The notes under the pieces were generated by a model. The model had not been told where the DNA came from. It worked only from the letters and a program-made list of their open reading frames with translations, and searched no databases. A program made the position numbers and the translations under genes. Shown here one piece after another: positions 20,906 through 56,552 of a DNA stretch of 64,000 nt; within the stretch, counting starts at the first letter, position 1, and every line of letters begins with the position of its first letter. The stretch comes from Perkinsus olseni (lineage: Eukaryota; Perkinsozoa; Perkinsida; Perkinsidae), in contig JABANP010000161.1 in the NCBI GenBank assembly GCA_013115135.1, positions 1 to 64,000 of the forward strand, given 5' to 3'.

Positions 20906-22786
20906 TCAAACAAGTCTATTCTCGTTGTTGAGATACGCATACAGAGGGAAAGATAGGAACAATATTCCGACAACCCAGGCCATGACAGAACCCCAGGTCT
21001 GCACTGTAAGATTGTACTTGTACGGAACGTCTTCGCTGGATCGAACAATACGGTGAAGACCCTCCCGCATGTGATAAAAGCAGGCGGCAGTTCCAATAGC
21101 ATAGAACAGTACCCAGAACGGGCTTTTGAACAAATCAAATACTCCCTTGTAGAGATCTCGGACTCGAACCATTTCACAGCTTGCGTCATCTCGAGAGCAG
21201 TGGAAGGGAGGTAACCACCGTGACCGAAAGTCAAACGGGGCGAAAACCGCGTCCGAGGCCAGCCGGAACTGCGATAGGTGCACCAGCAAGAAAACCAGGA
21301 GGATCGCGCCAGTGATTGCCATTTCCATATCCTTTAACGAAAGCCGTTCTTTCTTGAACTTGAAGGTGCGGTCTACGGCAACGATAACATGCATGAGACC
21401 AGCGAGCAGGAGGTAGATCTCAATAGGGCGTGCTAGAGTGCCGATCACAGGGACGGGGTGGTTGAGGAAGTGGGCGTATCCGTTGAAGTGCTCAGCGCCG
21501 AAGAAAAGGTGTATATTGCCCAAAGCATGTATCGTAACGAAGGCCATGAGGAAGATAGCCGACCGGGTTAGCCCTGAACGGTCCGACAATACTTTAAAGT
21601 TCTCCACCGTGAAAATGGACCTCAAAGCCTCTTTGACGAATAGTAGTACAAGATAGTAGAAAGACACGGAGTACCGCTGAGCGACCTCCGAGAACCCCAA
21701 TAACAAGGTCTCCTCGGGCGAGCTCCGAGCGACCTCTTGCACATCGTGGGAAAGATCCCCCAGGACGAGGTTGGGCACATATTTCTCGACGAAGTCTTTG
21801 GGGTGAACTAAATTATATTTCTCCGAAGCGTCCCCTCCAGCCACACTTAATATGGGCTTCTTGCCCCCCGGATGCTCCGACAGGAAGCTCGTGACGTCGA
21901 GGACTTCGCCGTTAATCACGATCCAGCAGTCGTCCTCAGAACAATGCTTGGCCACCTCCGTCATAGGTATACAACGCCGGCCAGCCTGAGGAGCAGGCTC
22001 CTCACTTTCGGACAGGACAGGGAGGAAGTCCACCGGGGACACCGTGCTGCCATCACCTAGCTGCACCGCAGTGTCCGAGTTTGATGGACATGCTCCCTCA
22101 GCCAAGTGCATTCCCCCAAAGGCAAGAATGGACTCATCCGTTCCGTCCAGCAGATCAGGTAGCACTGACGTCACGTCGTGAACTTGGCCGCCTAATACCA
22201 ACCAGTATTCAGCCGGCTCCGTGTGGGCCTCGCCGGCTTCCTCCCTGTCCACAGCAGAGCCCCCTTCAGACTCATCGACGTGATGAACACTCGTCGTAGT
22301 ATCCGACTCCGAGTTCCGACAGCATCGCGGCACTACAAACGTGTCTTCCCGCTTTTCATGGTCCTCCTCACTGTGAACATCTACTTCATCCACTTTGCTA
22401 CCGGCAGGCTCCTCTTCAGCAACAGGGCCCAGTATCTTATCTTTCGGTAGGAACTTCTCAATGACATCGGGGGAGTGTATCATGTTGAACATCCGTGAGG
22501 CATCCCTCCCGGCGAAATTAAGGATCGTTTTCTCGCCACCGGGGTGGTCACCAAGGAATCCTGTGACGTCCAAGACTCGGCCGTTGACTATAATCCAACA
22601 GTCATCCCGGCTATTGTGCTTTGCTACCTCCGAGGGCGCTAAACGGCGGTCGCACGGGACCAAATGTTCCGAGTCACCCATATCACCTCCGCTGTCCACA
22701 GCGTGTTCACCGATGCTTCCAGAAACCTCATCTATTCGGCCAGGGCCATTGTCTCCACGCACCGTATCGGACTGTGAGTGGAGCAT
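20906..22786 (-). CDS. Cytochrome b5 / SQR-type cytochrome b membrane fusion protein, no flavin domain
   Basis: This is a single 626-aa frame with a clean ATG. Residues about 48-120 form a cytochrome b5 domain (DDCWIIVNGRVLDVTGFLGD then HPGG and a second His in MIHS). Residues about 190-235 are b5-like but degenerate (WLVLGGQVHDVTSVL, no HPGG), so probably heme-free. Residues about 270-345 form another intact b5 domain (EHPGG, LVHP). The C-terminal 250 residues contain about six hydrophobic segments with four histidines in the positions expected of heme ligands in the type B succinate/fumarate reductase cytochrome b family: TIHALGNIHLF, LLAGLMHVIVAVDR, LLVFLLVHLSQF and ACFYHMREGLHR. Acidic linkers join the domains. 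It is a diverged relative of the C-terminal half of the giant genes at 27240-45392. It probably passes electrons between quinone and b5 hemes in a membrane; partner unknown. Confidence 0.8.
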   Translation of the reverse strand: MLHSQSDTVRGDNGPGRIDEVSGSIGEHAVDSGGDMGDSEHLVPCDRRLAPSEVAKHNSRDDCWIIVNGRVLDVTGFLGDHPGGEKTILNFAGRDASRMFNMIHSPDVIEKFLPKDKILGPVAEEEPAGSKVDEVDVHSEEDHEKREDTFVVPRCCRNSESDTTTSVHHVDESEGGSAVDREEAGEAHTEPAEYWLVLGGQVHDVTSVLPDLLDGTDESILAFGGMHLAEGACPSNSDTAVQLGDGSTVSPVDFLPVLSESEEPAPQAGRRCIPMTEVAKHCSEDDCWIVINGEVLDVTSFLSEHPGGKKPILSVAGGDASEKYNLVHPKDFVEKYVPNLVLGDLSHDVQEVARSSPEETLLLGFSEVAQRYSVSFYYLVLLFVKEALRSIFTVENFKVLSDRSGLTRSAIFLMAFVTIHALGNIHLFFGAEHFNGYAHFLNHPVPVIGTLARPIEIYLLLAGLMHVIVAVDRTFKFKKERLSLKDMEMAITGAILLVFLLVHLSQFRLASDAVFAPFDFRSRWLPPFHCSRDDASCEMVRVRDLYKGVFDLFKSPFWVLFYAIGTAACFYHMREGLHRIVRSSEDVPYKYNLTVQTWGSVMAWVVGILFLSFPLYAYLNNENRLV

Positions 22787-26198: not shown

Positions 26199-27239
26199 AA
26201 TGTCTTGCGTACACCCGACCTCGGATTGTCTCTTGATCTTCTTTCACCCTCTTGCGATTTCTTAAGGCCTAAGACAATCGTCATCTTGTGAGCTTCTGGC
26301 GAGTCTCTACACTGGTCGACAGGCTACACAATCGGCGGGCTCTTGCCCTCGTCGAGAGACATCGCAAGCCTTCTCGGTTGCATGACGATTTAGTAGTCAC
26401 TACCGCCGACTGCTCTCAGCAGGATGCCACCAGGGTTGCTCTCCCTTAGTAGTCTCGCTGCCGGTACTGCCCTTGCTCTTAGTTCCCTGATGGGCTCTGC
26501 TTGGAGCCACTTCCGACCGACCTGAACGGAGCGAACGTGAAGCTCTCACTGGAGGCTTGAGAAGGCATATGCAAGCTGCATGGGCATGTGTAGCGTGACT
26601 GGTGCTTGTGATGTTTGGATCCGTGCATGAATGGATGATCACTAGACGACTTTGAAATTAGCGAGCAGAGCATGGCTTCAATGGCCGACGCTGTGAATTA
26701 GCAAAACGGCGACACGCAGTTTTGTGTTGAAGTTGTAGTGCCGGGGCTGCCACTGTAGCAGGTGTATTCCACGAGCCTAACGGGCCTCACTGTTGAACCT
26801 CTCCGATGAGTTCTATCGCACTTCTAGTGAATCTCCTACCTTCTATCTCGAAGCTGCCGTACGAGAATCCTTAAACATCCACCAATAATCGAGTAGATAC
26901 ACAGCAATACGATGACGCAAAGTCGGTTCGGTTCTTGTACCGCACTGCTTGACCGGTAGACGACACAGCGTATTGAGACTGTCGATTTGGTAGGGCTTGC
27001 CGACGATGCCGTGAACGATCCGCGGCTAAACAGCAGCGGGGCGATTCGGAGGTGATATCTTATCTCCTGCAGGGGACAACTTGTGTCAAAGCTTCCATCG
27101 AGCTAAATATGTGGGCAGCTTATGTAAGCCCTCGGACGTAAAATGTGAACGTCAGTCTCATATTGACTTGTCAGGCTATTGCTGTGGTTGTTCAGATCGA
27201 GTCACACGTCGTTTGCTCAGTTTTTTTCCCCTGCAACTT
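26199..27239. other. Upstream region of the first giant reductase gene
   Basis: No gene was recognised. Just before the ATG at 27240 lies a T-rich tract following TGCTCAG (CAGTTTTTTTCCCC). The second copy has a very similar CAGTTTTTTTC tract before its own ATG, so this short element is conserved between the copies and may be a splice acceptor or core promoter feature. Confidence 0.4.
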
Positions 27240-30200
27240 ATGTCCTCGACGGAAACCCCGGCCAATCAAGTTATCGTGGTTGGTGGCGGCCTCGCAGGGT
27301 TCTCTGCTGCTAATAGTATTTTAGAACATGGTGGAAGCGTACTGCTTATTGATAAATCAGCGTTTTGCGGTGGGAACTCCTCCAAGGCCACTTCTGGTAT
27401 CAACGGTTCGTGCACCAGAACCCAAAAGAGACTCGGCGTTAAGGATTCCAACGAGGTGTTCGAGTTCGATTGCATGAAGGGTGGCTCCAAGAGTCCTGAG
27501 CTCATCAAGACTATGGTTGAGCATTCCGGCCCCTCTGTCAACTGGCTCATGGACAACTTCGATCTCGATCTTTCCCTTCTTGCTCGTATGGGTGGCCACT
27601 CTGTTGAGCGTACCCATCGTGGTAAGGAGCGTTTCCCTGGTATGACCATCACCTATGCCGAGATGCAGATGGCCGAGTCCATTTCCAAGGCCCTGCCTGA
27701 TAGGTGTAAGATTATCAACAAGGCTCGTGCAACCGAGCTGATCACCAACAAGGCTGGTGATGTTATTGGTGTTACGTACACCACTCACGATGGTGAATCA
27801 CATAAGGTTTATGGTCCTGTAGTCCTCGCCACCGGTGGTTACGGTGCTGATTTCACTAAGGATGGCCTTCTTGCCAAATATCGTCCCGACTTGCTCAAGT
27901 TGTCAACTACCAACGGTGAGCATTGCACTGGTGATGGCATCAAGATGGGTGTTAACGCTGGAGCTGATGTCGTCGATCTTGAGTGGGTACAGGTCCATCC
28001 TACTGGTCTCGTGAACCCCAAGGACCCCGACAGCAAGGTTAAGTTCTTGGCTGCTGAGGCTCTTCGTGGTGTTGGTGGTCTCTTGCTCGATGCTGATGGC
28101 CATCGGTTCTCCAATGAGCTCGGTCGTCGTGATTACGTCTCCGACAAGATGTTCCACAACAAGGGTCCCTTCCGTCTCGTGTTGAACACTGCTTCCTCTA
28201 ACGAGATGAAGTGGCATGTTGAGCACTACAAGGGCCGTGGTGTCATGAAGGAGTTCAACAGTGCTTACGATCTCGCTAAGGAGATGGGTATTCCTGCTTC
28301 TACCTTGGAGCAGACCTTCAAGGACTACAAGGAGGTTGCCAGTAAGCAGGAGGCGAATCCCGATGGTGGTGAGTATGATGCTTATCCTACCGGCAAGACC
28401 TTCGATAAGTTCGGCAAGAAGTTCTTCAAGAACTACGACTTCCAGATGGACGACCACTACAACGTCGCTATTGTCACTCCCCTTGTTCACTACTGTATGG
28501 GTGGCCTCAAGATTGATACTACTGGTCGCGTCATCAGCAAGGAGACGAAGAAGCCAATCCGCGGCCTTTATGCTGCTGGTGAGGTTATGGGAGGTGTCCA
28601 TGGCAACAACCGTTTGGGTGGCAACTCTCTTCTCGATTGCGTTGTCTACGGTCGCATAACGGGTAAGGACGCTTGCAAGACCTTCCTTCCCGCCAGAGCA
28701 AACGTTCCTCTTAAGGAACTGGCTCTCGGTCGTACTGAACCCAACAGGCGCGCTATTGTTGTTGGCGGTGGTTTGGCTGGCTTCAGTGCCTGCAATACGA
28801 TCCTCGAGAACGGCGGTAGTGTGCTGTTACTCGATAAGTCTGCTTTCTGCGGTGGTAATTCCTCCAAGGCCACTTCTGGAATCAACGGCTCCTGCACTAA
28901 GACTCAGAAGAGGCTCGGCATTAAGGACTCCAACGAGCTTTTCGAGTTCGATTGCATGAAGGGTGGCTCCAAGAACCCTCAACTCATCAAGACTATGGTT
29001 GAGGCTTCCGGTCCTTCTGTCAACTGGTTAATGGACAACTTCGATCTCGATCTTTCCCTTCTTGCTCGTATGGGTGGTCACTCTGTTGAGCGTACCCATC
29101 GTGGTAAGGAGCGTTTCCCTGGTATGACCATCACCTACGCCGAGATGCAGATGGCCGAGTCCATTTCCAAGGCTTTGCCTGAGAGGTGCCAAATTATGAA
29201 CAAGGCTAGAGTGACTAGTCTGATGACGGATGATGAGGGTGAAGTCATTGGTGTCCGTTATACTAAGGACGGCAAGGAACGAACAGAGTTCGGTCCTGTC
29301 ATTCTTGCAACTGGTGGCTTCGGTGCAGACTTCTCCAAGGATGGTCTGCTTGCTAAGTATCGTCCCGACTTGCTCAAGTTGTCAACTACCAACGGTGAGC
29401 ATTGCACTGGTGATGGCATTAAGATGGGTGTTGATATTGGTGCCCAAGCTATTGATCTTGAGTGGGTACAGGTCCATCCTACCGGTCTTGTGAACCCCAA
29501 GGACCCCGACAGCAAGGTTAAGTTCTTGGCTGCTGAGGCTCTTCGTGGTGTTGGTGGTCTCTTGCTCGATGCTGATGGCCACCGGTTCTCCAATGAGCTC
29601 GGTCGTCGTGATTACGTCTCCGACAAGATGTTCCACAACAAGGGTCCCTTCCGTCTCGTGTTGAACACTGCTTCCTCTAACGAGATGAAGTGGCATGTTG
29701 AGCACTACAAGGGCCGTGGTGTCATGAAGGAGTTCAACAGTGCTTACGATCTCGCTAAGGAGATGGGTATTCCTGCTTCTACCTTGGAGCAGACCTTCAA
29801 GGACTACAAGGAGGTTGCCAGTAAGCAGGAGGCGAATCCCGATGGTGGTGAGTATGATGCTTATCCTACCGGCAAGACCTTCGATAAGTTCGGCAAGAAG
29901 TTCTTCAAGAACTACGACTTCCAGATGGACGACCACTACAACGTCGCTATTGTCACTCCCCTTGTTCACTACTGTATGGGTGGCCTCAAGATTGATACCT
30001 CCGCTCACGTTATCGGCAAAGACGATCAGCCCATTCGTGGTCTCTACGCCGCTGGTGAAGTAATGGGAGGCGTCCACGGTAACAACCGTTTGGGTGGCAA
30101 TTCTCTTCTGGATTGTGTTGCTTATGGCCGTATCTCTGGTAAGGACTTGATCAACACTTTCTACCCCTCTGCCCAGCCTGTACCGCTGAAGGATTTGGCC

Positions 30201-33200
30201 ACTGGGAGGACTGAGCCTCGTAAACCAGCGATAGTCGTGGGAGGTGGTCTCGCCGGATTCTCCGCTGCCAACACTATCTTGGAGCGCGGGGGCGAGGTTA
30301 TCCTTATCGATAAGTCTGCTTTCTGTGGTGGTAATTCCTCCAAGGCTACTTCCGGCATCAATGGCTCTTGCACTAAGACCCAGAAGAGGCTCGGCGTCAA
30401 GGACTCCAACGAGCTTTTCGAGTTCGATTGCATGAAGGGTGGCTCCAAGAACCCTCAACTCATCAAGACTATGGTTGAGGCTTCCGGTCCTTCTGTCGAG
30501 TGGTTGATGGACAACTTCGATCTCGATCTTTCCCTTCTTGCTCGTATGGGTGGTCACTCTGTTGAGCGTACCCATCGTGGTAAGGAGCGTTTCCCTGGTA
30601 TGACCATCACCTACGCCGAGATGCAGATGGCCGAGGCTATCTCGAAGGCCTTGCCTGAGAGGTGCCAGATTATGAACAAGGCCCGTGCTACGGAGCTGGT
30701 TCAGAATGACGAGGGTGATGTTACTGGAGTTAAGTACGTCAAGGATGGCCAAACTCATACTTTGGAAGGCCCTGTTATCTTGGCTACCGGCGGTTACGGT
30801 GCTGATTTCACTAAGGATGGTCTCCTCGCCAAGTATCGTCCCGACTTGCTCAAGTTGTCAACTACCAACGGTGAGCATTGCACTGGTGATGGCATCAAGA
30901 TGGGTGTTAACGCTGGCGCTGATGTCGTCGATCTTGAGTGGGTACAGGTCCATCCTACCGGTCTCGTGAACCCCAAGGACCCCGACAGCAAGGTTAAGTT
31001 CTTGGCTGCTGAGGCTCTTCGTGGTGTTGGTGGTCTCTTGCTCGATGCTGATGGCCATCGGTTCTCCAATGAGCTCGGTCGTCGTGATTACGTCTCCGAC
31101 AAGATGTTCCACAACAAGGGTCCCTTCCGTCTCGTGTTGAACACTGCTTCCTCAAACGAGATGAAGTGGCATGTTGAGCACTACAAGGGCCGTGGTGTCA
31201 TGAAGGAGTTCGACAGTGCTTACGATCTCGCTAAGGAGATGGGTATTCCTGCTTCTACCTTGGAGCAGACCTTCAAGGACTACAAGGAGGTTGCCAGTAA
31301 GCAGGAGGCGAATCCCGATGGTGGTGAGTATGATGCTTATCCTACCGGCAAGACCTTCGATAAGTTCGGCAAGAAGTTCTTCAAGAACTACGACTTCCAG
31401 ATGAACGACCACTACAACGTCGCTATTGTCACTCCCCTTGTTCACTACTGTATGGGTGGTCTCAAGATTGATGAGCACGCTCATGTTATCAACAAGAGCG
31501 GTAAGCCTATCCGTGGTCTGTACGCTGCTGGTGAGCTCATGGGAGGTGTTCACGGAAACAATAGGTTGGGTGGTAACTCTCTATTGGATTGCGTCGCCTA
31601 TGGTCGCATCTCTGGTAACAATCTTATCGACACCTTCTACCCTCAGTGCCATCGTGTGCCTCTGAAGGACCTTGAGGATGGTCGTACTGAGGCTCGTAAG
31701 CGTGTTATTGTTGTTGGTGGTGGTCTTGCTGGCTTCTCTGCTGCCAATACCGTTCTCGAGCACGGCGGGGAAGTCCTTCTCGTCGATAAGTCGGCCTTCT
31801 GTGGTGGCAATTCATCGAAGGCTACTTCCGGTATCAACGGTTCGGGTACCAAGACTCAAGCGCGACTTGGCGTTAAGGACTCCAACGAGCAGTTCGAGTT
31901 CGATTGCATGAAGGGTGGCTCCAAGAGCCCTGAGCTCATCAAGACTATGGTTGAGCATTCCGCTCCTTCGGTCGACTGGCTCATGGACACTTTCGGATTG
32001 GATCTTTCCCTTCTTGCTCGTATGGGTGGTCACTCTGTTGAGCGTACCCATCGTGGTAAGGAGCGTTTCCCTGGTATGACCATCACCTATGCCGAGATGC
32101 AGATGGCCGAGGCTATCTCTAAGGCTCATCCTGACAAGTGTCAGATCATTAACAAGGCGAGAGCAACTGAGCTTGAGACTGATAACGACGGCAACGTCAT
32201 CGGTGTCAAGTACGAGAAGGACGGCAAGTCTTACGTCGTTGATGGACCTGTCATCCTCGCCACCGGTGGTTACGGTGCCGATTTCACTAAGGACGGCCTT
32301 CTTGCCAAATATCGTCCCGATTTGCTCAAGTTGTCAACTACCAACGGTGAGCATTGCACCGGTGATGGCATCAAGATGGGTGTTAACGCTGGCGCTGATG
32401 TCGTCGATCTTGAGTGGGTACAGGTCCATCCTACTGGTCTCGTGAACCCCAAGGACCCCGACAGCAAGGTTAAGTTCTTGGCTGCTGAGGCTCTTCGTGG
32501 TGTCGGTGGTCTCTTGCTCGATGCTGATGGCCATCGGTTCTCCAATGAGCTCGGTCGTCGTGATTACGTCTCCGACAAGATGTTCCACAACAAGGGTCCC
32601 TTCCGTCTCGTGTTGAACACTGCTTCCTCTAACGAGATGAAGTGGCATGTTGAGCACTACAAGGGCCGTGGTGTCATGAAGGAGTTCAACAGTGCTTACG
32701 ATCTCGCTAAGGAGATGGGTATTCCTGCTTCTACCTTGGAGCAAACCTTCAAGGACTACAAGGAGGTTGCCAGTAAGCAGGAGGCGAATCCCGATGGTGG
32801 TGAGTATGATGCCTATCCTACCGGCAAGACCTTCGATAAGTTCGGCAAGAAGTTCTTCAAGAACTACGACTTCCAGATGAACGACCACTACAACGTCGCT
32901 ATTGTCACTCCCCTTGTTCACTACTGTATGGGTGGCCTCAAGATTGATACCGCTGGTCGCGTCATCAGCAAGGAGACGAAGAAGCCAATCCGCGGCCTTT
33001 ATGCTGCTGGTGAGGTTATGGGAGGTGTCCATGGCAACAACCGTTTGGGTGGCAATTCTCTCCTCGACTGCGTCGTCTTCGGTCGGTTGACTGCTGATAA
33101 TGCTTGTGAGGATCTTCTCGGTCTTAAGAAGAGTATGTCCTTGCCTGCTCTTGCTAAGGCACCTGCTAGTGCACCCAAGAAGTCTGCACCGGCCAAGGTC

Positions 33201-35396
33201 GCTGCTGCTGCTGCTCCTGCCCCTGCTGCACACGGTTACACGAAGGAGGAAGTGTCGAAGCATCATACTGAGAATGATTGCTGGGTCATCATCAACGGTG
33301 AAGTGTTGAATGTCACGCATTTCCTTCCCGAGCATCCTGGTGGAAAGCTCGCTATCATGACCTTCGCGGGTAAGGACGCGAGCAAGGAGTTCAACATGAT
33401 TCATCCTTCGGACGTTGTCGAGAAGTACGCCCCTGATGCCATGATTGGTCCAGTAGTTGACAAGGCTACTGCTGCTGCCGCTGCTGCCGCCGCTCCCGCT
33501 GCACCTGCCGTAGCGGCGTCTGCTCCGGCCACCTCTGCTGCTCCTGCTGGTCAGTCGTACACCATGGACGAGATCTCGAAGCACAACTCTCGCGATTCGT
33601 GCTGGGTTGTCATCGACGGTGAGGTCTTGGATGTAACAGGTTTCTTGCCCGATCATCCTGGTGGAGATATCTCTATTCTCAACTATGGTGGTAAGGACGC
33701 TACTGCGCCGTTCCACGATATCCATCCTGCTGGCATCATCCAGAAGTACTGTCCTGATGCTGTCATCGGTGTGGTCGGAAACGGCTCTGCTCCTGCCGCT
33801 GCCCCAGCTTCGGCTCCTGCAGCTGCTACTGTTCCTGCTCCTGCTACGCCTGGTTACACTATGGACGAGGTCGCCAAGCACAACACCGAGAGTGATTGCT
33901 GGGTTGCCCTCAACGGTCAGGTGTTGAACGTCACTAACTTCCTCCCTGAGCATCCTGGTGGAAAGCTCGCTATCATGACCTTCGCGGGTAAGGACGCTTC
34001 TAAGGAGTTCAACATGATTCATCCTCCGGATGTTGTTGAGAAGTACGCTTCCGACTGTATTCTCGGACCCGTTGTTGAGGGTAAGGCTGCACCGGCTCCG
34101 GCTGCTCCGGCCGCTTCGAAGCCCGCGCCTGCGCCTGCTGCTTCCACGCCTGCGCCTGCTCCCACTACTGCTGCTTCCACGCCTGCGCCTACTCCTGCAG
34201 CTGCTCCTGCTGCTTCCGCTCCCGCTAATGGTATCACCATGGAGGAAGTGGCGAAGCATACGACCGAGGATGATTGCTGGGTTGTTATCAATGGTGAGGT
34301 GCTCGATGTTACCGACTTCCTCCCCAAGCATCCTGGTGGAAAGATGGCTATTCTTACTTTCGCGGGTAAGGATGCCTCTAAGGAGTTCAACATGATTCAT
34401 CCCGCTGGTGTCATTGAGAAGTACGCTCCTGATGCTACTCTTGGCCCACTTGTCGAGAAGGCTGCTGGCCCTGCTGCCGCTGGTGGTGACTTGGCTCAAC
34501 CTCTCCTGGCTGATCAGTTCGAGTCCAAGGCTCTCACTGAACAGTGGTGGGGTGAGGACCGCAACAAGGCTGATATGTTCGGACCATTGGGACCTTCTGT
34601 TACCTCCTATGTCATCTCTCTCTGTTACATGATCTGGATGTTCGTCATTGATACTCTCAAGACTATCTTCAGCATCAAGAATTACAAGGTCCTGTCTGAT
34701 AAGTCTGGATTGGAGCGTTCTGCCATCTTCATCATGGTCTTCGTCACCATTCATGCTCTTGGTAACATCAACCTGTTGATCAGTGATAGGAGCTTCGAAG
34801 GTTATGCCTACCTCCTGAATCATCCTTGTCCGTGGAGCACACTATTCCTCCCTGTCGAGATTTATCTCTTGCTCGCTGGACTGTTGCATGTTGTTGTCGC
34901 CACCGATCGTACATTCAAGTTCAAGACTATGAACTCGTCTGTCCGTGACTTGGAGATGGCTATATCTGGTGGCATTCTTCTTGTCTTCCTTATTGTCCAT
35001 CTTCTTCAATTCCGTCTCATCTCTGAAGCTAATTGCCCTCAGTACTGGATGCGTGATAACTGGTTCCCTTGCGCCGATGACGACACGAGCTGCCCCATCA
35101 TCCACTTCAAGGATCTCTACAAGATGGCCTTCAAGATCTTCGAGAGTTTCGGTTGGGTATGCTTCTATCTCGTCGGTGTCATATGTTTCTTCATTCATAT
35201 GAAGAGTGGTCTCAGCCGTGTCATCATGACAAACAATAACATCCCGAGGAAGTACAAGGGCACTACCCAATTCTGGGGATCTGTTATGGCTTGGGTGCTC
35301 TTCATCCTTTACCTTATTTATCCTCTCTTCGCTTACTTCAACCCCGTCAAGGACTGGGCTGCGTATGATGCGAAGCAGATTCGTCCAGAGCTTTGA
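27240..35396 (+). CDS. Giant fumarate reductase fusion, copy 1: four flavoprotein modules, four cytochrome b5 domains, SQR-type cytochrome b
   Basis: One intronless frame of 2,718 codons begins MSSTETPANQ; the frame is open further upstream but the ATG at 27240 fits. Four FAD_binding_2 fumarate reductase modules start near 27270, 28752, 30228 and 31704. Each has the dinucleotide fold VVGGGLAGFSA, GGNSSKATSGING, the substrate residues in VQVHPTG, the acid/base Arg in EALRGVGG, HYCMGGLKID and NNRLGGNSLLDC, so all four look catalytically complete. Ala/Pro linkers then separate four b5 domains (near 33234, 33557, 33851 and 34230), each with HPGG and a second axial His (MIHP or DIHP). The C-terminus (34530 onward) has about six membrane segments with four candidate heme His: TIHALGN, LLAGLLHVVVA, FLIVHLLQF and CFFIHMKSG. 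The modules resemble yeast soluble fumarate reductase (OSM1/FRDS1). A quinol-to-fumarate electron path in one chain is inferred. No targeting peptide is obvious. Confidence 0.9.
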   Translation: MSSTETPANQVIVVGGGLAGFSAANSILEHGGSVLLIDKSAFCGGNSSKATSGINGSCTRTQKRLGVKDSNEVFEFDCMKGGSKSPELIKTMVEHSGPSVNWLMDNFDLDLSLLARMGGHSVERTHRGKERFPGMTITYAEMQMAESISKALPDRCKIINKARATELITNKAGDVIGVTYTTHDGESHKVYGPVVLATGGYGADFTKDGLLAKYRPDLLKLSTTNGEHCTGDGIKMGVNAGADVVDLEWVQVHPTGLVNPKDPDSKVKFLAAEALRGVGGLLLDADGHRFSNELGRRDYVSDKMFHNKGPFRLVLNTASSNEMKWHVEHYKGRGVMKEFNSAYDLAKEMGIPASTLEQTFKDYKEVASKQEANPDGGEYDAYPTGKTFDKFGKKFFKNYDFQMDDHYNVAIVTPLVHYCMGGLKIDTTGRVISKETKKPIRGLYAAGEVMGGVHGNNRLGGNSLLDCVVYGRITGKDACKTFLPARANVPLKELALGRTEPNRRAIVVGGGLAGFSACNTILENGGSVLLLDKSAFCGGNSSKATSGINGSCTKTQKRLGIKDSNELFEFDCMKGGSKNPQLIKTMVEASGPSVNWLMDNFDLDLSLLARMGGHSVERTHRGKERFPGMTITYAEMQMAESISKALPERCQIMNKARVTSLMTDDEGEVIGVRYTKDGKERTEFGPVILATGGFGADFSKDGLLAKYRPDLLKLSTTNGEHCTGDGIKMGVDIGAQAIDLEWVQVHPTGLVNPKDPDSKVKFLAAEALRGVGGLLLDADGHRFSNELGRRDYVSDKMFHNKGPFRLVLNTASSNEMKWHVEHYKGRGVMKEFNSAYDLAKEMGIPASTLEQTFKDYKEVASKQEANPDGGEYDAYPTGKTFDKFGKKFFKNYDFQMDDHYNVAIVTPLVHYCMGGLKIDTSAHVIGKDDQPIRGLYAAGEVMGGVHGNNRLGGNSLLDCVAYGRISGKDLINTFYPSAQPVPLKDLATGRTEPRKPAIVVGGGLAGFSAANTILERGGEVILIDKSAFCGGNSSKATSGINGSCTKTQKRLGVKDSNELFEFDCMKGGSKNPQLIKTMVEASGPSVEWLMDNFDLDLSLLARMGGHSVERTHRGKERFPGMTITYAEMQMAEAISKALPERCQIMNKARATELVQNDEGDVTGVKYVKDGQTHTLEGPVILATGGYGADFTKDGLLAKYRPDLLKLSTTNGEHCTGDGIKMGVNAGADVVDLEWVQVHPTGLVNPKDPDSKVKFLAAEALRGVGGLLLDADGHRFSNELGRRDYVSDKMFHNKGPFRLVLNTASSNEMKWHVEHYKGRGVMKEFDSAYDLAKEMGIPASTLEQTFKDYKEVASKQEANPDGGEYDAYPTGKTFDKFGKKFFKNYDFQMNDHYNVAIVTPLVHYCMGGLKIDEHAHVINKSGKPIRGLYAAGELMGGVHGNNRLGGNSLLDCVAYGRISGNNLIDTFYPQCHRVPLKDLEDGRTEARKRVIVVGGGLAGFSAANTVLEHGGEVLLVDKSAFCGGNSSKATSGINGSGTKTQARLGVKDSNEQFEFDCMKGGSKSPELIKTMVEHSAPSVDWLMDTFGLDLSLLARMGGHSVERTHRGKERFPGMTITYAEMQMAEAISKAHPDKCQIINKARATELETDNDGNVIGVKYEKDGKSYVVDGPVILATGGYGADFTKDGLLAKYRPDLLKLSTTNGEHCTGDGIKMGVNAGADVVDLEWVQVHPTGLVNPKDPDSKVKFLAAEALRGVGGLLLDADGHRFSNELGRRDYVSDKMFHNKGPFRLVLNTASSNEMKWHVEHYKGRGVMKEFNSAYDLAKEMGIPASTLEQTFKDYKEVASKQEANPDGGEYDAYPTGKTFDKFGKKFFKNYDFQMNDHYNVAIVTPLVHYCMGGLKIDTAGRVISKETKKPIRGLYAAGEVMGGVHGNNRLGGNSLLDCVVFGRLTADNACEDLLGLKKSMSLPALAKAPASAPKKSAPAKVAAAAAPAPAAHGYTKEEVSKHHTENDCWVIINGEVLNVTHFLPEHPGGKLAIMTFAGKDASKEFNMIHPSDVVEKYAPDAMIGPVVDKATAAAAAAAAPAAPAVAASAPATSAAPAGQSYTMDEISKHNSRDSCWVVIDGEVLDVTGFLPDHPGGDISILNYGGKDATAPFHDIHPAGIIQKYCPDAVIGVVGNGSAPAAAPASAPAAATVPAPATPGYTMDEVAKHNTESDCWVALNGQVLNVTNFLPEHPGGKLAIMTFAGKDASKEFNMIHPPDVVEKYASDCILGPVVEGKAAPAPAAPAASKPAPAPAASTPAPAPTTAASTPAPTPAAAPAASAPANGITMEEVAKHTTEDDCWVVINGEVLDVTDFLPKHPGGKMAILTFAGKDASKEFNMIHPAGVIEKYAPDATLGPLVEKAAGPAAAGGDLAQPLLADQFESKALTEQWWGEDRNKADMFGPLGPSVTSYVISLCYMIWMFVIDTLKTIFSIKNYKVLSDKSGLERSAIFIMVFVTIHALGNINLLISDRSFEGYAYLLNHPCPWSTLFLPVEIYLLLAGLLHVVVATDRTFKFKTMNSSVRDLEMAISGGILLVFLIVHLLQFRLISEANCPQYWMRDNWFPCADDDTSCPIIHFKDLYKMAFKIFESFGWVCFYLVGVICFFIHMKSGLSRVIMTNNNIPRKYKGTTQFWGSVMAWVLFILYLIYPLFAYFNPVKDWAAYDAKQIRPEL

Positions 35397-36646: not shown

Positions 36647-39600
36647 ATGTCCGAGACGTCCTGCAATCAAGTTATCGTGGTTGGTGGCGGCCTTGCAGGG
36701 TTCTCTGCTGCTAATAGTATTTTAGAACATGGTGGAAGCGTACTGCTTATTGATAAATCAGCATTTTGCGGTGGGAACTCCTCCAAGGCCACTTCTGGTA
36801 TCAACGGTTCGTGCACCAGAACCCAAAAGAGACTCGGCGTTAAGGACTCCAACGAGGTGTTCGAGTTCGATTGCATGAAGGGTGGCTCCAAGAGTCCTGA
36901 GCTCATCAAGACTATGGTTGAGCATTCCGGCCCCTCTGTCAACTGGCTCATGGACAGCTTCGATCTCGATCTTTCCCTTCTTGCTCGTATGGGTGGCCAC
37001 TCTGTTGAGCGTACCCATCGTGGTAAGGAGCGTTTCCCTGGTATGACCATCACCTATGCCGAGATGCAGATGGCCGAGTCCATTTCCAAGGCCCTGCCTG
37101 ATAGGTGTAAGATTATCAACAAGGCTCGTGCAACCGAGCTGATCACCAACAAGGCTGGTGATGTTATTGGTGTTACGTACACCACTCACGATGGTGAATC
37201 ACATAAGGTTTATGGTCCTGTAGTCCTCGCCACCGGTGGTTACGGTGCTGATTTCACTAAGGATGGCCTTCTTGCCAAATATCGTCCCGACTTGCTCAAG
37301 TTGTCAACTACCAACGGTGAGCATTGCACTGGTGATGGAATCAAGATGGGTGTTAACGCTGGCGCTGATGTCGTCGATCTTGAGTGGGTACAGGTCCATC
37401 CTACTGGTCTCGTGAACCCCAAGGACCCCGACAGCAAGGTCAAGTTCTTGGCTGCTGAGGCTCTTCGTGGTGTTGGTGGTCTCTTGCTCGATGCTGATGG
37501 CCATCGGTTCTCCAATGAGCTCGGTCGTCGTGATTACGTCTCCGACAAGATGTTCCACAACAAGGGTCCCTTCCGTCTCGTGTTGAACACTGCTTCCTCT
37601 AACGAGATGAAGTGGCATGTTGAGCACTACAAGGGCCGTGGTGTCATGAAGGAGTTCAACAGTGCTTACGATCTCGCTAAGGAGATGGGTATTCCTGCTT
37701 CTACCTTGGAGCAGACCTTCAAGGACTACAAGGAGATTGCTAGTAAGCAGGAGGCGAATCCCGATGGTGGTGAGTATGATGCTTATCCTACCGGCAAGAC
37801 TTTCGATAAGTTCGGCAAGAAGTTCTTCAAGAACTACGACTTCCAGATGAACGACCACTACAACGTCGCTATTGTCACTCCCCTTGTTCACTACTGTATG
37901 GGTGGCCTCAAGATTGATACTACTGGCCGCGTCATCAGCAAGGAGACGAAGAAGCCAATCCGCGGCCTTTATGCTGCTGGTGAGGTTATGGGAGGTGTCC
38001 ATGGCAACAACCGTTTGGGTGGCAACTCCCTTCTCGATTGCGTTGTCTACGGTCGCATAACGGGTAAGGACGCTTGCAAGACCTTCCTTCCCGCCAGAGC
38101 AAACGTTCCTCTTAAGGAACTGGCTCTCGGTCGTACTGAACCCAACAGGCGCGCTATTGTTGTTGGCGGTGGTTTGGCTGGCTTCAGTGCCTGCAATACG
38201 ATCCTCGAGAACGGCGGTAGTGTGCTGTTGCTCGATAAGTCTGCTTTCTGCGGTGGTAATTCCTCCAAGGCCACTTCAGGAATCAACGGCTCCTGCACTA
38301 AGACTCAGAAGAGGCTCGGCATTAAGGACTCCAACGAGCTTTTCGAGTTCGATTGCATGAAGGGTGGCTCCAAGAACCCTCAACTCATCAAGACTATGGT
38401 TGAGGCTTCCGGTCCTTCTGTCAACTGGTTAATGGACAACTTCGATCTCGATCTTTCCCTTCTTGCTCGTATGGGTGGTCACTCTGTTGAGCGTACCCAT
38501 CGTGGTAAGGAGCGTTTCCCTGGTATGACCATCACCTACGCCGAGATGCAGATGGCCGAGTCCATTTCCAAGGCTTTGCCTGAGAGGTGCCAAATTATGA
38601 ACAAGGCTAGAGTGACTAGTCTGATGACGGATGATGAGGGTGAAGTCATTGGTGTCCGTTATACTAAGGACGGCAAGGAACGAACAGAGTTCGGTCCTGT
38701 CATTCTTGCAACTGGTGGCTTCGGTGCAGACTTCTCCAAGGATGGTCTGCTTGCTAAGTATCGTCCCGACTTGCTCAAGTTGTCAACTACCAACGGTGAG
38801 CATTGCACTGGTGATGGCATTAAGATGGGTGTTGATATTGGTGCCCAAGCTATTGATCTTGAGTGGGTACAGGTCCATCCTACCGGTCTTGTGAACCCCA
38901 AGGACCCCGACAGCAAGGTTAAGTTCTTGGCTGCTGAGGCTCTTCGTGGTGTTGGTGGTCTCTTGCTCGATGCTGATGGCCACCGGTTCTCCAATGAGCT
39001 CGGTCGTCGTGATTACGTCTCCGACAAGATGTTCCACAACAAGGGTCCCTTCCGTCTCGTGTTGAACACTGCTTCCTCTAACGAGATGAAGTGGCATGTT
39101 GAGCACTACAAGGGCCGTGGTGTCATGAAGGAGTTCAACAGTGCTTACGATCTCGCTAAGGAGATGGGTATTCCTGCGTCTACCTTGGAGCAGACCTTCA
39201 AGGACTACAAGGAGGTTGCCAGTAAGCAGGAGGCGAATCCCGATGGTGGCGAGTATGATGCTTATCCTACCGGCAAGACCTTCGATAAGTTCGGCAAGAA
39301 GTTCTTCAAGAACTACGACTTCCAGATGGACGACCACTACAACGTCGCTATTGTCACTCCCCTTGTTCACTACTGTATGGGTGGCCTCAAGATTGATACC
39401 TCCGCTCACGTCATCGGCAAAGACGATCAGCCCATTCGTGGTCTCTACGCCGCTGGTGAAGTAATGGGAGGCGTCCACGGTAACAACCGTTTGGGTGGCA
39501 ATTCTCTTCTGGATTGTGTTGCTTATGGCCGTATCTCTGGTAAGGACTTGATCAGCACTTTCTACCCCTCTGCCCAGCCTGTACCGCTGAAGGATTTGGC

Positions 39601-42600
39601 CACTGGGAGGACTGAGCCTCGTAAACCAGCGATAGTCGTGGGAGGTGGTCTCGCCGGATTCTCCGCTGCCAACACTATCTTGGAGCGCGGGGGCGAGGTT
39701 ATCCTTATCGATAAGTCTGCTTTCTGTGGTGGTAATTCCTCCAAGGCTACTTCCGGCATCAATGGCTCTTGCACTAAGACTCCAGAAGAGGCTCGGCGTC
39801 AAGGACTCCAACGAGCTTTTCGAGTTCGATTGCATGAAGGGTGGCTCCAAGAACCCTCAACTCATCAAGACTATGGTTGAGGCTTCCGGTCCTTCTGTCG
39901 AGTGGTTGATGGACAACTTCGATCTCGATCTTTCCCTTCTTGCTCGTATGGGTGGTCACTCTGTTGAGCGTACCCATCGTGGTAAGGAGCGTTTCCCTGG
40001 TATGACCATCACCTACGCCGAGATGCAGATGGCCGAGGCTATCTCGAAGGCCTTGCCTGAGAGGTGCCAGATTATGAACAAGGCCCGTGCTACGGAGCTG
40101 GTTCAGAATGACGAGGGTGATGTTACTGGAGTTAAGTACGTCAAGGATGGCCAAACTCATACTTTGGAAGGCCCTGTTATCTTGGCTACCGGCGGTTACG
40201 GTGCTGATTTCACTAAGGATGGTCTCCTCGCCAAGTATCGTCCCGACTTGCTCAAGTTGTCAACTACCAACGGTGAGCATTGCACTGGTGATGGCATCAA
40301 GATGGGTGTTAACGCTGGCGCTGATGTCGTCGATCTTGAGTGGGTACAGGTCCATCCTACTGGCCTCGTGAACCCCAAGGACCCCGACAGCAAGGTTAAG
40401 TTCTTGGCTGCTGAGGCTCTTCGTGGTGTTGGTGGTCTCTTGCTCGATGCTGACGGCCACCGGTTCTCCAATGAGCTCGGTCGTCGTGATTACGTCTCCG
40501 ACAAGATGTTCCACAACAAGGGTCCCTTCCGTCTCGTGTTGAACACTGCTTCCTCTAACGAGATGAAGTGGCATGTTGAGCACTACAAGGGCCGTGGCGT
40601 CATGAAGGAGTTCAACAGTGCTTACGATCTCGCTAAGGAGATGGGTATTCCTGCTTCTACCTTGGAGCAGACCTTCAAGGACTACAAGGAGGTTGCCAGT
40701 AAGCAGGAGGCGAATCCCGATGGTGGTGAGTATGATGCTTATCCTACCGGCAAGACCTTCGATAAGTTCGGCAAGAAGTTCTTCAAGAACTACGACTTCC
40801 AGATGAACGACCACTACAACGTCGCTATTGTCACTCCCCTTGTTCACTACTGTATGGGTGGTCTCAAGATTGATGAGCACGCTCATGTTATCAACAAGAG
40901 CGGTAAGCCTATCCGTGGTCTGTACGCTGCTGGTGAGCTCATGGGAGGTGTTCACGGAAACAATAGGTTGGGTGGTAACTCTCTATTGGATTGCGTCGCC
41001 TATGGTCGCATCTCTGGTAACAATCTCATCGACACCTTCTACCCTCAGTGCCATCGCGTGCCTCTGAAGGACCTTGAGGATGGTCGTACTGAGGCTCGTA
41101 AGCGTGTTATTGTTGTTGGTGGTGGTCTTGCTGGCTTCTCTGCTGCCAATACCGTTCTCGAGCACGGCGGGGAAGTCCTTCTCGTCGATAAGTCGGCCTT
41201 CTGTGGTGGCAATTCATCGAAGGCTACTTCCGGTATCAACGGTTCGGGTACCAAGACTCAAGCGAGACTTGGCGTTAAGGACTCCAACGAGCAGTTCGAG
41301 TTCGATTGCATGAAGGGTGGCTCCAAGAGCCCTGAGCTCATCAAGACAATGGTTGAGCATTCCGCTCCTTCGGTCGACTGGCTCATGGACACTTTCGGAT
41401 TGGATCTTTCCCTTCTTGCTCGTATGGGTGGTCACTCTGTTGAGCGTACCCATCGTGGTAAGGAGCGTTTCCCTGGTATGACCATTACCTATGCCGAGAT
41501 GCAGATGGCCGAGGCTATCTCTAAGGCTCATCCTGACAAGTGTCAGATCATTAACAAGGCGAGAGCAACTGAACTTGAGACTGATAACGACGGCAACGTC
41601 ATCGGTGTCAAGTACGAGAAGGACGGCAAGTCTTTCGTCGTTGATGGACCTGTCATCCTCGCCACCGGTGGTTACGGTGCTGATTTCACTAAGGACGGCC
41701 TCCTTGCCAAATATCGTCCCGACTTGCTTAAGTTGTCAACTACCAACGGTGAGCATTGCACTGGTGATGGCATCAAGATGGGTGTTAACGCTGGCGCTGA
41801 TGTCGTCGATCTTGAGTGGGTACAGGTCCATCCTACTGGTCTCGTGAACCCCAAGGACCCCGACAGCAAGGTTAAGTTCTTGGCTGCTGAGGCTCTTCGT
41901 GGTGTTGGTGGTCTCTTGCTCGATGCTGATGGCCATCGGTTCTCCAATGAGCTCGGTCGTCGTGATTACGTCTCCGACAAGATGTTCCACAACAAGGGTC
42001 CCTTCCGTCTCGTGTTGAACACTGCATCCTCTAACGAGATGAAGTGGCATGTTGAGCACTACAAGGGCCGTGGCGTCATGAAGGAGTTCAACAGTGCTTA
42101 CGATCTCGCTAAGGAGATGGGTATTCCTGCTTCTACCTTGGAGCAGACCTTCAAGGACTACAAGGAGGTTGCCAGTAAGCAGGAGGCGAATCCCGATGGT
42201 GGTGAGTATGATGCTTATCCTACCGGTAAGACCTTCGATAAGTTCGGCAAGAAGTTCTTCAAGAAGTACGACTTCCAGATGGACGACCACTACAACGTCG
42301 CTATTGTCACTCCCCTTGTTCACTACTGTATGGGTGGCCTCAAGATTGATACCGCTGGTCGCGTCATCAGCAAGGAGACGAAGAAGCCAATCCGCGGCCT
42401 CTATGCTGCTGGTGAGGTCATGGGAGGTGTCCACGGTAACAACCGTTTGGGTGGCAACTCTCTTCTCGACTGCGTCGTCTTTGGTCGGTTGACTGCTGAT
42501 AATGCTTGTGAGGATCTTCTCGGTCTTAAGAAGAGTATGTCCTTGCCTGCTCTTGCTAAGGCACCTGCTAGTGCACCCAAGAAGTCTGCCCCGGCCAAGG

Positions 42601-45392
42601 TCGCTGCTGCTGCTGCTCCTGCCCCTGCTGCACACGGTTACACGAAGGAGGAAGTGGCGAAGCATCATACTGAGAATGATTGCTGGGTCATCATCAACGG
42701 TGAAGTGTTGAATGTCACGCATTTCCTTCCTGAGCATCCTGGTGGCAAGCTCGCTATCATGACCTTCGCGGGTAAGGACGCTTCCAAGGAGTTCAACATG
42801 ATTCATCCTTCGGACGTTGTTGAGAAGTACGCCCCTGATGCCATGATTGGTCCAGTAGTTGACAAGGCTACTGCTGCCGCTGCTGCCGCCGCTCCCGCTG
42901 CACCTGCTGTAGCGACGTCTGCTCCGGCCGCTTCTGCTGCTCCTGCTGGAAAGTCGTACACCATGGAGGAAATCTCCAAGCACAACTCTCGCGAGTCGTG
43001 CTGGGTTGTCATCGACGGTGAGGTCTTGGATGTAACAGGTTTCTTGCCTGACCACCCTGGTGGAGATATCTCTATTCTCAACTATGGTGGTAAGGACGCT
43101 ACTGCGCCGTTCCACGATATCCATCCGGCTGGTATCATCCAGAAGTACTGTCCTGATGCTGTCATTGGCGTGGTCGGAAACGGCTCTGCTCCTGCCACTG
43201 CCGCCGCAGCTTCGGCTCCTGCAGCTGCTCCCGCTATGCCTGGGTACACTATTGACGAGGTCGCCGAGCACCACACCGAGGGTGATTGCTGGGTTGTTGT
43301 CAACGGTAAGGTCCTGGATGTCACGCATTTCCTTCCTGAGCATCCTGGTGGAAAGCTCGCCATCATGACCTTCGCTGGTAAGGATGCCACAAAGGAGTTC
43401 AACATGATTCATCCTCCGGATGTTGTCGAGAAATATGCTCCTGATGCCATCCTTGGTCCACTGGTTGACAAGGCAACCGCTGCCGCTGCACCTGCACCTA
43501 CTGCTGCCGCCGCTCCGAGTGTAACAGCCCCTTCTACTGATGGTCGCAAGTCTTACACTATGGAGGAAATCTCCAAGCACAACTCTCGCGAGTCGTGCTG
43601 GGTTGTCATCGACGGTGAGGTCTTGGATGTAACAGGTTTCTTGCCCGATCATCCTGGTGGAGATATCTCTATTCTCAACTATGGTGGTAAGGACGCTACT
43701 GCGCCGTTCCACGATATCCATCCTGCTGGAATCATCCAGAAGTACTGTCCTGATGCTGTCATCGGTGTGGTCGGAAACGGCTCTGCTCCTGCCGCTGCCC
43801 CAGCTTCGGCTCCTGCAGCTGCTACTGCTCCTGCTCCTGCTACGCCTGGTTACACTATGGACGAGGTCGCCAAGCACAACACCGAGAGTGATTGCTGGGT
43901 TGCCCTCAACGGTCAGGTGTTGAACGTCACCAACTTCCTTCCTGAGCATCCTGGTGGAAAGCTCGCCATCATGACCTTTGCGGGTAAGGACGCTTCCAAG
44001 GAGTTCAACATGATTCATCCTCCGGATGTTGTTGAGAAGTACGCTTCCGACTGTATTCTCGGACCCGTTGTTGAGGGTAAGGCTGCACCGGCTCCGGCTG
44101 CTCCGGCCGCTTCGAAGCCCGCGCCTGCGCCTGCTGCTTCCACGCCTGCGCCTGCTCCCACTACTGCTGCTTCCACGCCTGCGCCTACTCCTGCAGCTGC
44201 TCCTGCTGCTTCCGCTCCCGCTAATGGTATCACCATGGAGGAAGTGGCGAAGCATACGACCGAGGATGATTGCTGGGTTGTTATCAATGGTGAGGTGCTC
44301 GATGTTACCGACTTCCTCCCCAAGCATCCTGGTGGAAAGATGGCTATTCTTACTTTCGCGGGTAAGGATGCCTCTAAGGAGTTCAACATGATTCATCCCG
44401 CTGGTGTCATTGAGAAGTACGCTCCTGATGCTACTCTTGGCCCACTTGTCAAGAAGGCTGCGGGCCCTGCTGCCGCTGGTAGTGACTTGGCTCAACCTCT
44501 CCTGGCTGATCAGTTCGAGTCCAAGGCTCTCACTGAACAGTGGTGGGGTGAGGACCGCAACAAGGCTGATATGTTCGGACCATTGGGACCTTCTGTTACC
44601 TCCTATGTCATCTCTCTCTGTTACATGATCTGGATGTTCGTCATTGATACTCTCAAGACTATCTTCAGCATCAAGAATTACAAGGTCTTGTCCGATAAGT
44701 CTGGATTGGAGCGTTCTGCCATCTTCATCATGGTCTTCGTCACCATTCATGCTCTTGGTAACATCAACCTGTTGATCAGTGATAGGAGCTTCGAAGGTTA
44801 TGCCTACCTCCTGAACCATCCTTGTCCGTGGAGCACACTATTCCTCCCTGTCGAGATTTATCTCTTGCTCGCTGGACTGTTGCATGTTGTTGTCGCCACC
44901 GATCGTACATTCAAGTTCAAGACTATGAACTCGTCTGTCCGTGACTTGGAGATGGCTATATCTGGTGGCATTCTTCTTGTCTTCCTTATTGTCCATCTTC
45001 TTCAATTCCGTCTCATCTCTGAAGCTAATTGCCCTCAGTACTGGATGCGTGATAACTGGTTCCCTTGCGCCGATGACGACACGAGCTGCCCCATCATCCA
45101 CTTCAAGGATCTCTACAAGATGGCCTTCAAGATCTTCGAGAGTTTCGGTTGGGTATGCTTCTATCTCGTCGGTGTCATATGTTTCTTCATTCATATGAAG
45201 AGTGGTCTCAGCCGTGTCATCATGACTAACAATAACATCCCGAGGAAGTATAAGGGCACTACCCAATTCTGGGGATCTGTTATGGCTTGGGTGCTCTTCA
45301 TCCTTTACCTTATTTATCCTCTCTTCGCTTACTTCAACCCCGTCAAGGACTGGGCTGCGTATGATGCGAAGCAGATTCGTCCAGAGGCCTAA
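36647..45392 (+). CDS. Giant fumarate reductase fusion, copy 2: four flavoprotein modules, six cytochrome b5 domains, cytochrome b; one-base frameshift
   Basis: The start MSETSCNQVIVVGGG replaces the first residues of copy 1. Flavin modules begin near 36671, 38153, 39630 and 41105 with the same active-site motifs. In module 3 one extra T at about 39781 (ACTAAGACTCCAGAAG where copy 1 has ACTAAGACCCAGAAG) shifts the frame. The first frame stops at 39880, and the correct frame resumes and runs to 45392. Allowing for that base, the length is 2,914 codons, exactly two b5 domains longer than copy 1. b5 domains start near 42636, 42955, 43243, 43550, 43848 and 44227, and the fourth is almost a copy of the second. 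The membrane domain matches copy 1. The shift may be a sequencing or assembly error or a genuine pseudogenising mutation. The otherwise intact remaining 5.6 kb argues for an error or a very recent event. Confidence 0.85.
39781..39781 (+). other. Single-base insertion (frameshift) in copy 2
   Basis: Compared with copy 1 at about 30380, copy 2 has an additional T within CTAAGACTCCAGAAG. It breaks module 3 shortly after the GGNSSKATSGING motif. Confidence 0.85.
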
Positions 45393-55626: not shown

Positions 55627-56230
55627 TTTGACTTTGTCTGTCACCAGTGGTAAGGCGAGTAACGCTATATTCAGCTGTAACTCTCCTACGCGTTTACTAA
55701 CCGCACGTTTCGCGCCACGGGGTGGCGCAGCGCGATTCGAGGCCTATTGGTACTAGATATTCTACTCGGCATATAACGGAAAATTTTTCATGCACCCCCT
55801 CCCCCTTCCAATGTTGAACCACTTTCGATGACATCTCGTGGGGGGCTGGCTGCGATAACATTCAACATTGTATGTGGGGACGGGGGGCGAGCTAGCACCA
55901 GGAGACAAGTATAAGAATACTGCCGCTTCCGGCCCTCCCGGAGCTCTAAAGTATTGTCAGGTTGGTCGTTTAGCTCAGTCGGTTAGAGCATCGTGCTAAT
56001 AACGCGAGGGTCGCAGGTTCGAGCCCTGCATCGACCATTGACGTCTTGCTCTGACTGAGGCGACCTTCGAAGCGTCACGCAGTCGTATTCGTTGTGCACC
56101 GGAAGCCTCTCATGCCTTCAGTTCTAACGTTGAGCCGCTATTGTCGAGTTAGCTCGGCGCTTGATGACAAGATGCTGCCGATGCAGCGTTCACCAGCTAA
56201 CGGCTATCCCGTTACCACCAGATCCCCAAT
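55627..56230. repeat. Duplicated tRNA block, copy A
   Basis: About 604 bp here match 56802-57411. The match covers the flanks, a tRNA-Ile gene and about 190 bp after it, ending at the shared CCACCAGATCCCCAAT. Small substitutions and indels separate the copies. Confidence 0.85.
55964..56037 (+). tRNA. tRNA-Ile (anticodon AAU)
   Basis: The acceptor GGTCGTT pairs with ATCGACC apart from one mismatch. The D arm is AGCTCAGTCGGTTAGAGC, the anticodon loop is CTAATAA with anticodon AAT, and the T arm is GCAGGTTCGAGCCCTGC. The discriminator is A. Boxes A and B are both good. Confidence 0.9.
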
Positions 56231-56270
56231 TATTGGGACAATCGGTAGCGAGTTCCTTCCATCGTGATGC

Positions 56271-56343
56271 GCGGCTTTGGCGCAGTAGGTAGCGCGTAGG
56301 TCTCATAATTCAAAGGTGGCGAGTTCGATCCTCGCAGGCCGCA
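56271..56343 (+). tRNA. tRNA-Met (anticodon CAU), elongator-like
   Basis: GCGGCTT pairs with AGGCCGC (one G-T pair). The D arm GGCGCAGTAGGTAGCGC and T arm GCGAGTTCGATCCTCGC are intact. The loop CTCATAA gives anticodon CAT and the overall sequence resembles elongator tRNA-Met. The anticodon stem (TAGGT with TTCAA) has weak pairs, so reduced function or a pseudogene is possible. Confidence 0.75.
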
Positions 56344-56463
56344 GTGTACGGCCACAGTGAATGAGCTGATCAATTGATCAACTCCTTTAGTAAGAGTATT
56401 CAAGTATTCTTTACCATATTTTGTGATCACTTGTTCAGTTTTCCCTGAATTTCACGCCTGGCT

Positions 56464-56552
56464 GTGGTCGTACTGGGATGAGACATCTAGAGTCACGGGC
56501 GCGCGACGTACTCCCCTCCACAGGACCCGTAATCTCCGTAAACCAGCCCAGA
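56464..56552. repeat. Duplicated 5' flank of tRNA-Phe (also at 58777-58865)
   Basis: GTGGTCGTACTGGGATGAGA through AACCAGCCCAGA is found again at 58777-58865 with a few changes. The shared part stops seven bases into the tRNA-Phe gene. Confidence 0.85.

Follow-up and report, generated by a model that had tools for sequence, protein, structure and literature searches.

A single-frame Perkinsus olseni gene encoding four fumarate reductase-type modules, four cytochrome b5 domains and a putative two-haem membrane cytochrome

The window analysed here is a 64,000-nucleotide stretch (positions 1 to 64,000) of contig JABANP010000161.1 from the alveolate Perkinsus olseni, corresponding to contig C70 of the 61.5-Mb assembly used for the genome searches. 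It contains a gene, termed gene A, whose frame runs unbroken from an ATG at 27240 to a stop at 35396, confirming the single intronless frame of 2,718 codons proposed in a first-pass annotation of this DNA. The start is the first in-frame ATG past the stop ending at 27029, and the complete stop-to-stop frame (27030–35396) comprises 2,788 codons. The predicted product contains four FAD_binding_2/flavocytochrome-c modules of the fumarate reductase (FRD) type, four cytochrome b5 (b5) domains and a 276-residue C-terminal membrane domain (Table 1). Antisense frames of 458 and 829 amino acids (aa) overlapping gene A are its mirror images and were not counted as genes.

The four flavin modules were recovered as four FAD_binding_2 stretches in Pfam (E 4e-302) and as four stretches of the flavocytochrome c family TIGR01813 in NCBIfam, which scored 1542.8 bits over the whole chain against a cut-off of 285.45; flavocytochrome c is the best match of the modules. 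They are each ∼492 residues long, display pairwise protein identities of 84–90% and are joined by short, mutually similar linkers. Among solved structures, the closest chains are ‘Fumarate reductase 2’ (5glg), presumably the yeast protein Frd1/Osm1, and flavocytochrome c3 (1qo8, E 1.2e-68). The motifs HPTG, EALRGVGG, HYCMGG and NRLGGN, previously reported in every module, were each counted exactly four times. In the alignment the His of HPTG, the Glu and Arg of EALRG, the Arg of GRRDY, the His of HYCMGG and the Arg of NRLGG fall on equivalent residues of the solved chains, positions that are presumably the substrate-binding and proton-donor residues. This catalytic His/Glu/Arg/Arg/His/Arg set is kept in 4/4 modules of gene A and in all 18 module sequences from the genome, one of which (gene B module 3) is readable only in part. 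The modules are predicted to bind flavin adenine dinucleotide (FAD).

The four b5 domains match Cyt-b5 (Pfam PF00173) with 312.4 bits against a cut-off of 23.7 (E 3.9e-95, four stretches), and both axial His, the predicted haem ligands, are retained in each, as had been claimed. The domains are spaced by linkers of 23–51 residues, 78–88% of which are Ala, Pro, Ser or Thr. Across the genome both axial His are present in 42 of 46 b5 matches, the exceptions being three that are cut by frame changes and one that is degenerate. Directly before the membrane domain lies an LxxPLL...WWGExRN-type motif (34491–34565), which by eye is alike in FRD-containing relatives, FRD-less relatives and relatives from outside the genome.

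The membrane domain had been described as carrying four His of the kind seen in two-haem succinate:quinone reductase (SQR) and quinol:fumarate reductase (QFR) cytochromes. These putative haem ligands are present in 54/54 aligned membrane-domain sequences, a profile alignment matches them with the four His of the Chloroflexus cytochrome, and the C-terminal 276 residues match the b558 family TIGR02046 (NCBIfam, E 2.4e-13). The putative ligands and predicted helical fold place the domain among the two-haem cytochromes, and it is predicted to adopt the fold of the type-B SQR/QFR cytochrome and would accordingly bind two b haems and quinone. Foldseek and VIA matches to G-protein-coupled receptors and channels were disregarded as common helical-bundle matches. 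Cys 169 and Cys 176 of the domain, invariant in nine aligned sequences, occupy the same inter-helix loop and could possibly form a disulphide.

No iron–sulphur (Fe–S) domain occurs among the 21 Pfam families matched by gene A (E ≤ 0.001), in keeping with the reported lack of an FrdB-like domain, although the membrane domain is also absent from this list and a strongly diverged domain could likewise escape it. The same 21 families include no b5-reductase domain, ApbE or Cytb5R. The predicted chain begins 14 residues ahead of its Rossmann motif, which is too short for a cleavable presequence, and thus the FRD side of the protein probably faces the cytosol.

Table 1. Features of gene A and of related loci in the P. 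olseni genome (coordinates without a contig refer to the window).
Feature	Position	Strand	Description
Gene A	27240..35396	+	4 FRD - 4 b5 - 1 di-haem-type cytochrome, single frame
FRD module 1	27264..28745	+	Flavocytochrome c type; six active-site residues kept; nearest solved chain 5glg, E 2.1e-85
FRD module 2	28746..30221	+	
FRD module 3	30222..31697	+	
FRD module 4	31698..33179	+	
b5 domain 1	33225..33452	+	Both axial His
b5 domain 2	33546..33773	+	Both axial His
b5 domain 3	33843..34070	+	Both axial His
b5 domain 4	34221..34448	+	Both axial His
Membrane domain	34566..35393	+	Predicted b558-like SQR/QFR cytochrome fold; extra N-terminal hydrophobic helix (~34599-34673)
His 63 of membrane domain	34752..34754	+	Invariant; putative haem ligand
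His 108 of membrane domain	34887..34889	+	Invariant; putative haem ligand
His 145 of membrane domain	34998..35000	+	Invariant; putative haem ligand
His 211 of membrane domain	35196..35198	+	Invariant; putative haem ligand
Gene B	36647..45392	+	Tandem paralogue directly downstream of gene A; 4 FRD - 6 b5 - cytochrome; start ATG by eye
FRD-less relative	20906..22786	-	Two good b5, one degenerate b5, cytochrome domain
Gene C	C67		2 FRD - 3 b5 - cytochrome, unbroken
Gene D	C67		3 FRD - 3 b5 - cytochrome, one frame change
Gene E	C745		3 FRD - 3 b5 - cytochrome, frame changes
Partial copy	C825		Two FRD modules, DNA 98.2% and 99.4% identical to gene E modules 1 and 2
FRD-less relative	C67	-	5 b5 and cytochrome
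Two FRD-less relatives (L018/L019)	C75:19573-25457		Five and eight b5 before cytochrome
FRD-less relative	C765		5 b5 as far as contig end
L022	C177		FRD and b5 in several pieces; no cytochrome in stretch examined
L023	C113		FRD alone; no b5 or cytochrome in stretch examined

A scan of the genome with three domain profiles (FRD, b5 and cytochrome) revealed what the first-pass annotation had missed: the tandem gene B, an FRD-less neighbour and further loci, to which single-FRD relatives from outside the genome are added below. Five FRD-bearing loci (A–E) also encode b5 domains and the cytochrome, and frame changes are present in three (B, D and E). Gene B changes frame once, within FRD module 3, reflecting either a pseudogene or a sequencing error. 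Gene E corresponds to the P. olseni database protein FOZ60_015371 (P0003; 2,056 aa; 3 FRD–3 b5–cytochrome), while in the partial copy on C825 the scan found no b5 and no cytochrome. Introns are likely in L022. Elsewhere in the window, a 472-aa frame without a Pfam match (22941–24359, minus strand) lies beside the FRD-less b5-cytochrome gene, a MoeA-like molybdopterin protein with a DUF1244 match at its end is encoded at 18733–20004 (minus strand), and a cluster of tRNA genes occupies 55963–57218 (plus strand; Ile, Met and Phe by ARAGORN, a fourth by Rfam).

The modules of gene A are unevenly conserved. When five module pairs were compared in 30-codon windows, codons 240–390 were 98–100% identical at the DNA level, the flanking windows 86–99% and 91–97%, and the first and last windows 56–74%, with one further window, at codon 150, at 60–70%. 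The near-identical core includes much of the active site, and the profile is, on sequence grounds, the pattern of gene conversion within the gene. Gene A module 4 and gene C module 2 are 68–88% identical at codons 210–420, and genes A and B differ by a synonymous divergence (dS) of 0.015–0.07, depending on the module. The three modules of gene E are less homogenised than those of gene A, with pairwise dS of 1.1–1.7 and ratios of non-synonymous to synonymous divergence (dN/dS) of 0.09–0.15. In 32/32 module comparisons, which share modules and are not independent, dN/dS was 0.04–0.25, ruling out a degenerate, functionless array. In the module tree the sequences cluster by gene lineage (A with B; C with D and P0002; E with F), which would fit either conversion or separate expansions, and the modules of genes A and B pair according to their position in the chain. 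A cytochrome tree of 49 rows, whose long branches call for caution, gives full support to a split between 37 b5-linked rows and 12 stand-alone ones, and keeps the ten Perkinsus rows together (100/99). As the cytochrome of the FRD-less gene at 20906–22786 groups with that of gene A (99/95), on a long branch, this gene has probably lost its FRD part.

In cytochrome searches beyond the genome, 1,004 candidates yielded 14 long relatives and 6,103 candidates yielded 144 shorter ones, 120 of which were among the matches listed. An FRD match was found in 13 of the 135 proteins examined (query included), and nine of these 13 are not labelled Perkinsus (P0007, P0011, P0012, P0013, P0014, P0027, P0093, P0094 and P0104). 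The nine display the order FRD–b5–cytochrome or FRD–b5–b5–cytochrome; P0012 resembles a shortened version of P0013, while in P0027, P0093, P0094 and P0104 the FRD is represented by its last 40–77 residues alone. More than one FRD module was observed, among the 135 proteins, only in P0001, P0002 and P0003, all from P. olseni. The earlier view that the gene is highly unusual therefore holds for the multiplication of the FRD module, but not for the fused FRD–b5–cytochrome chain, which is shared by a wider family with single-FRD members. In the partial P. olseni records P0004 and P0005, which have other locus prefixes, the same cytochrome is preceded by six and seven b5 domains, showing that the b5 count varies, and a P. 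marinus relative (P0010, 5 b5–cytochrome) is annotated ‘succinate dehydrogenase, putative’. The source of relatives designated ‘merc’ is presumably a catalogue of marine eukaryotes; ‘marine eukaryotes’ is that presumed label and not a result. A single long-protein search (∼1,495–4,756 aa; the 7,985 best word-sharing candidates scored) yielded two giant FRD chains, both from P. olseni, and the statement that no other exists is valid only for that search. The FRD–b5–membrane-cytochrome architecture is undescribed in the titles and abstracts of the literature searched, while full texts may describe it. In a survey of Oxyrrhis expressed sequence tags (ESTs), the P. marinus ‘succinate dehydrogenase, putative’ is the best hit of 10 clusters (27 ESTs) and ‘osmotic growth protein / fumarate reductase’ that of 4 clusters (27 ESTs; PMC3942190).

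These data suggest, with an even chance of being right, that the gene A product is a multi-haem flavoprotein integral to the membrane and acts in the manner of a QFR, but without Fe–S clusters. Electrons would pass from quinol through two membrane haems and b5 to FAD and fumarate, a path that is the simplest because the three parts occur in that order and no Fe–S or b5-reductase module was matched. Type-B cytochromes contain two haems and a quinone site, each b5 domain carries one electron, and FRDs of the flavocytochrome-c type can accept electrons singly from haems, fumarate being reduced at the FAD. The b558-like domain would reside in the membrane and exchange electrons with the quinone pool via two b haems. 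The four b5 domains, on flexible Ala/Pro-rich tethers, would be swinging carriers that deliver one electron at a time to the FADs, each domain being able to visit several flavins, and it can reasonably be inferred that their haems stand in for the Fe–S wire. The four FRD modules would then reduce fumarate to succinate. The presence of several modules per anchor would raise the catalytic capacity per membrane cytochrome, for which the repeated lipoyl domains of 2-oxoacid dehydrogenases provide an analogy. The genome also contains SdhA pieces on C101 (best E 7.6e-139), four SdhB pieces on C445 that fall short of the family cut-off (E 2.6e-10 to 2.3e-4), two of them with an internal stop, broken as those of an intron-bearing gene would appear, and alternative oxidase on C38 and C122; the gene A product is thus probably not a simple replacement for complex II.

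Several observations weigh against this reading. Ubiquinol-driven fumarate reduction is energetically uphill, and a low-potential quinone or another donor would be required. The TIGR02046 score of the membrane domain is 50.2 bits, below the curated cut-off of 96, so that from its sequence the domain is a diverged relative of the family and is not filed as a member. A phmmer search with the domain against the PDB returned nothing up to E 10, and Foldseek gave a single match at E ≤ 0.001 (9lay_C, 1.2e-06), with Wolinella chains at 0.01–0.03; the domain was placed by profile and fold searches. The extra hydrophobic helix at the N-terminus of the domain, with a mean maximal hydropathy of 1.71 over 34 rows, may place the b5/FRD part across the membrane core from where the bacterial QFR layout would have it. 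Gene A may also have a further exon at its 5′ end that encodes a targeting signal. The FRD-less relatives retain the cytochrome, which may therefore serve other partners. Finally, an AlphaFold2 model of the single-FRD relative P0007, based on eight sequences, had a mean confidence (pLDDT) of 51.6, and domain placement was not possible.

The main rival, although unlikely, is that cytosolic NADH reduces b5 through a separate cytochrome b5 reductase, with electrons passing to FAD and fumarate as in the kinetoplastid enzymes and the membrane cytochrome serving as an anchor or outlet. Electron transfer from b5 reductase to b5 domains is classical, the lack of room for a presequence in gene A puts cytosolic NADH within reach, and the genome contains a short FAD_binding_6 match (C246, E 5.3e-6, above cut-off). 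In Trypanosoma brucei FRDg, an FRD is fused to a Cytb5R domain (PMC8065229). No such domain was matched in the gene A chain, however, and the invariant His of the membrane domain would not be needed by a plain anchor. It is improbable that the protein is a transmembrane electron exporter or a ferric/ascorbate-type reductase, in which flavins and b5 would feed, or be fed by, the membrane haems and fumarate would not be the main substrate. Equally doubtful is the reduction of another enoate, such as urocanate or methacrylate: urocanate reductase belongs to the flavocytochrome c family and was also matched (6t85, E 8.6e-54), but the closest relative among solved structures is a fumarate reductase and the His/Arg positions presumed to bind fumarate are kept in all modules. 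An artefact, in which the four-fold repeat is mis-assembled or the modules are made as separate proteins, is very improbable, and mis-assembly of gene A unlikely, for although identity between modules reaches 100% in places, three of five loci change frame and neither long-protein match has the length of gene A, the latter is one unbroken frame with diverged module ends, its modules pair in order with those of gene B, and the diverged, constrained modules of gene E match a P. olseni protein.

More broadly, the family may represent a membrane fumarate reductase built independently as one polypeptide, with b5 replacing the Fe–S subunit and with a two-haem cytochrome of bacterial type joined to an FRD of the soluble type. 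It would be present in several lineages, probably of marine eukaryotes, and in Perkinsus would have been amplified into a chain that carries between two and four enzymes and from three to seven b5 domains on a single quinone-reacting anchor; this wider proposal is tentative, its chance being judged slightly short of even. Quinone-linked fumarate reduction and succinate oxidation are normally performed by complex II with its Fe–S clusters, and the gene A product would accomplish this in another way, free of oxygen-sensitive Fe–S centres. The conservation of all the repeated modules, even where synonymous sites have diverged in one paralogue, raises the question of why several active sites per anchor are maintained.

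The modules of gene A share family sequence and active-site residues with yeast fumarate reductase (Frd1/Osm1) and Shewanella flavocytochrome c3 (Fcc3), but these enzymes lack b5 and the b558 membrane domain. The yeast and Shewanella proteins are soluble and have one FAD module, and Fcc3 uses c-type haems. The type-B QFR/SQR enzymes of Wolinella, Desulfovibrio gigas and Chloroflexus share the predicted membrane-domain fold and the flavin-to-haem-to-quinone logic. They consist, however, of separate subunits, including an Fe–S subunit and an SdhA-type flavoprotein, whereas gene A has one chain, b5 for Fe–S, a soluble-type FRD and the extra N-terminal helix. With flavocytochrome-c modules and no Fe–S match in Pfam, gene A falls outside complex II as defined by an SdhA/FrdA flavoprotein, an Fe–S subunit and a cytochrome. 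The glycosomal NADH-dependent FRDg of kinetoplastids resembles gene A in being a multidomain FRD from a eukaryote, in receiving electrons through a b5-related part and in having tandem genes that recombine via an identical FRD core, but differs in its single FRD, its ApbE–FRD–b5 reductase order and the lack of a b5 haem domain and a membrane cytochrome (PMC8065229). Gene A matches neither the ApbE nor the Cytb5R domain that flank the single FRD of that class. The direct relatives are P0007, P0011, P0013, P0014 and P0003, annotated ‘hypothetical protein’ or ‘flavocytochrome c’, or nameless, which have the same domain order as gene A, with one FRD module in the first four and three in P0003, compared with four in gene A.
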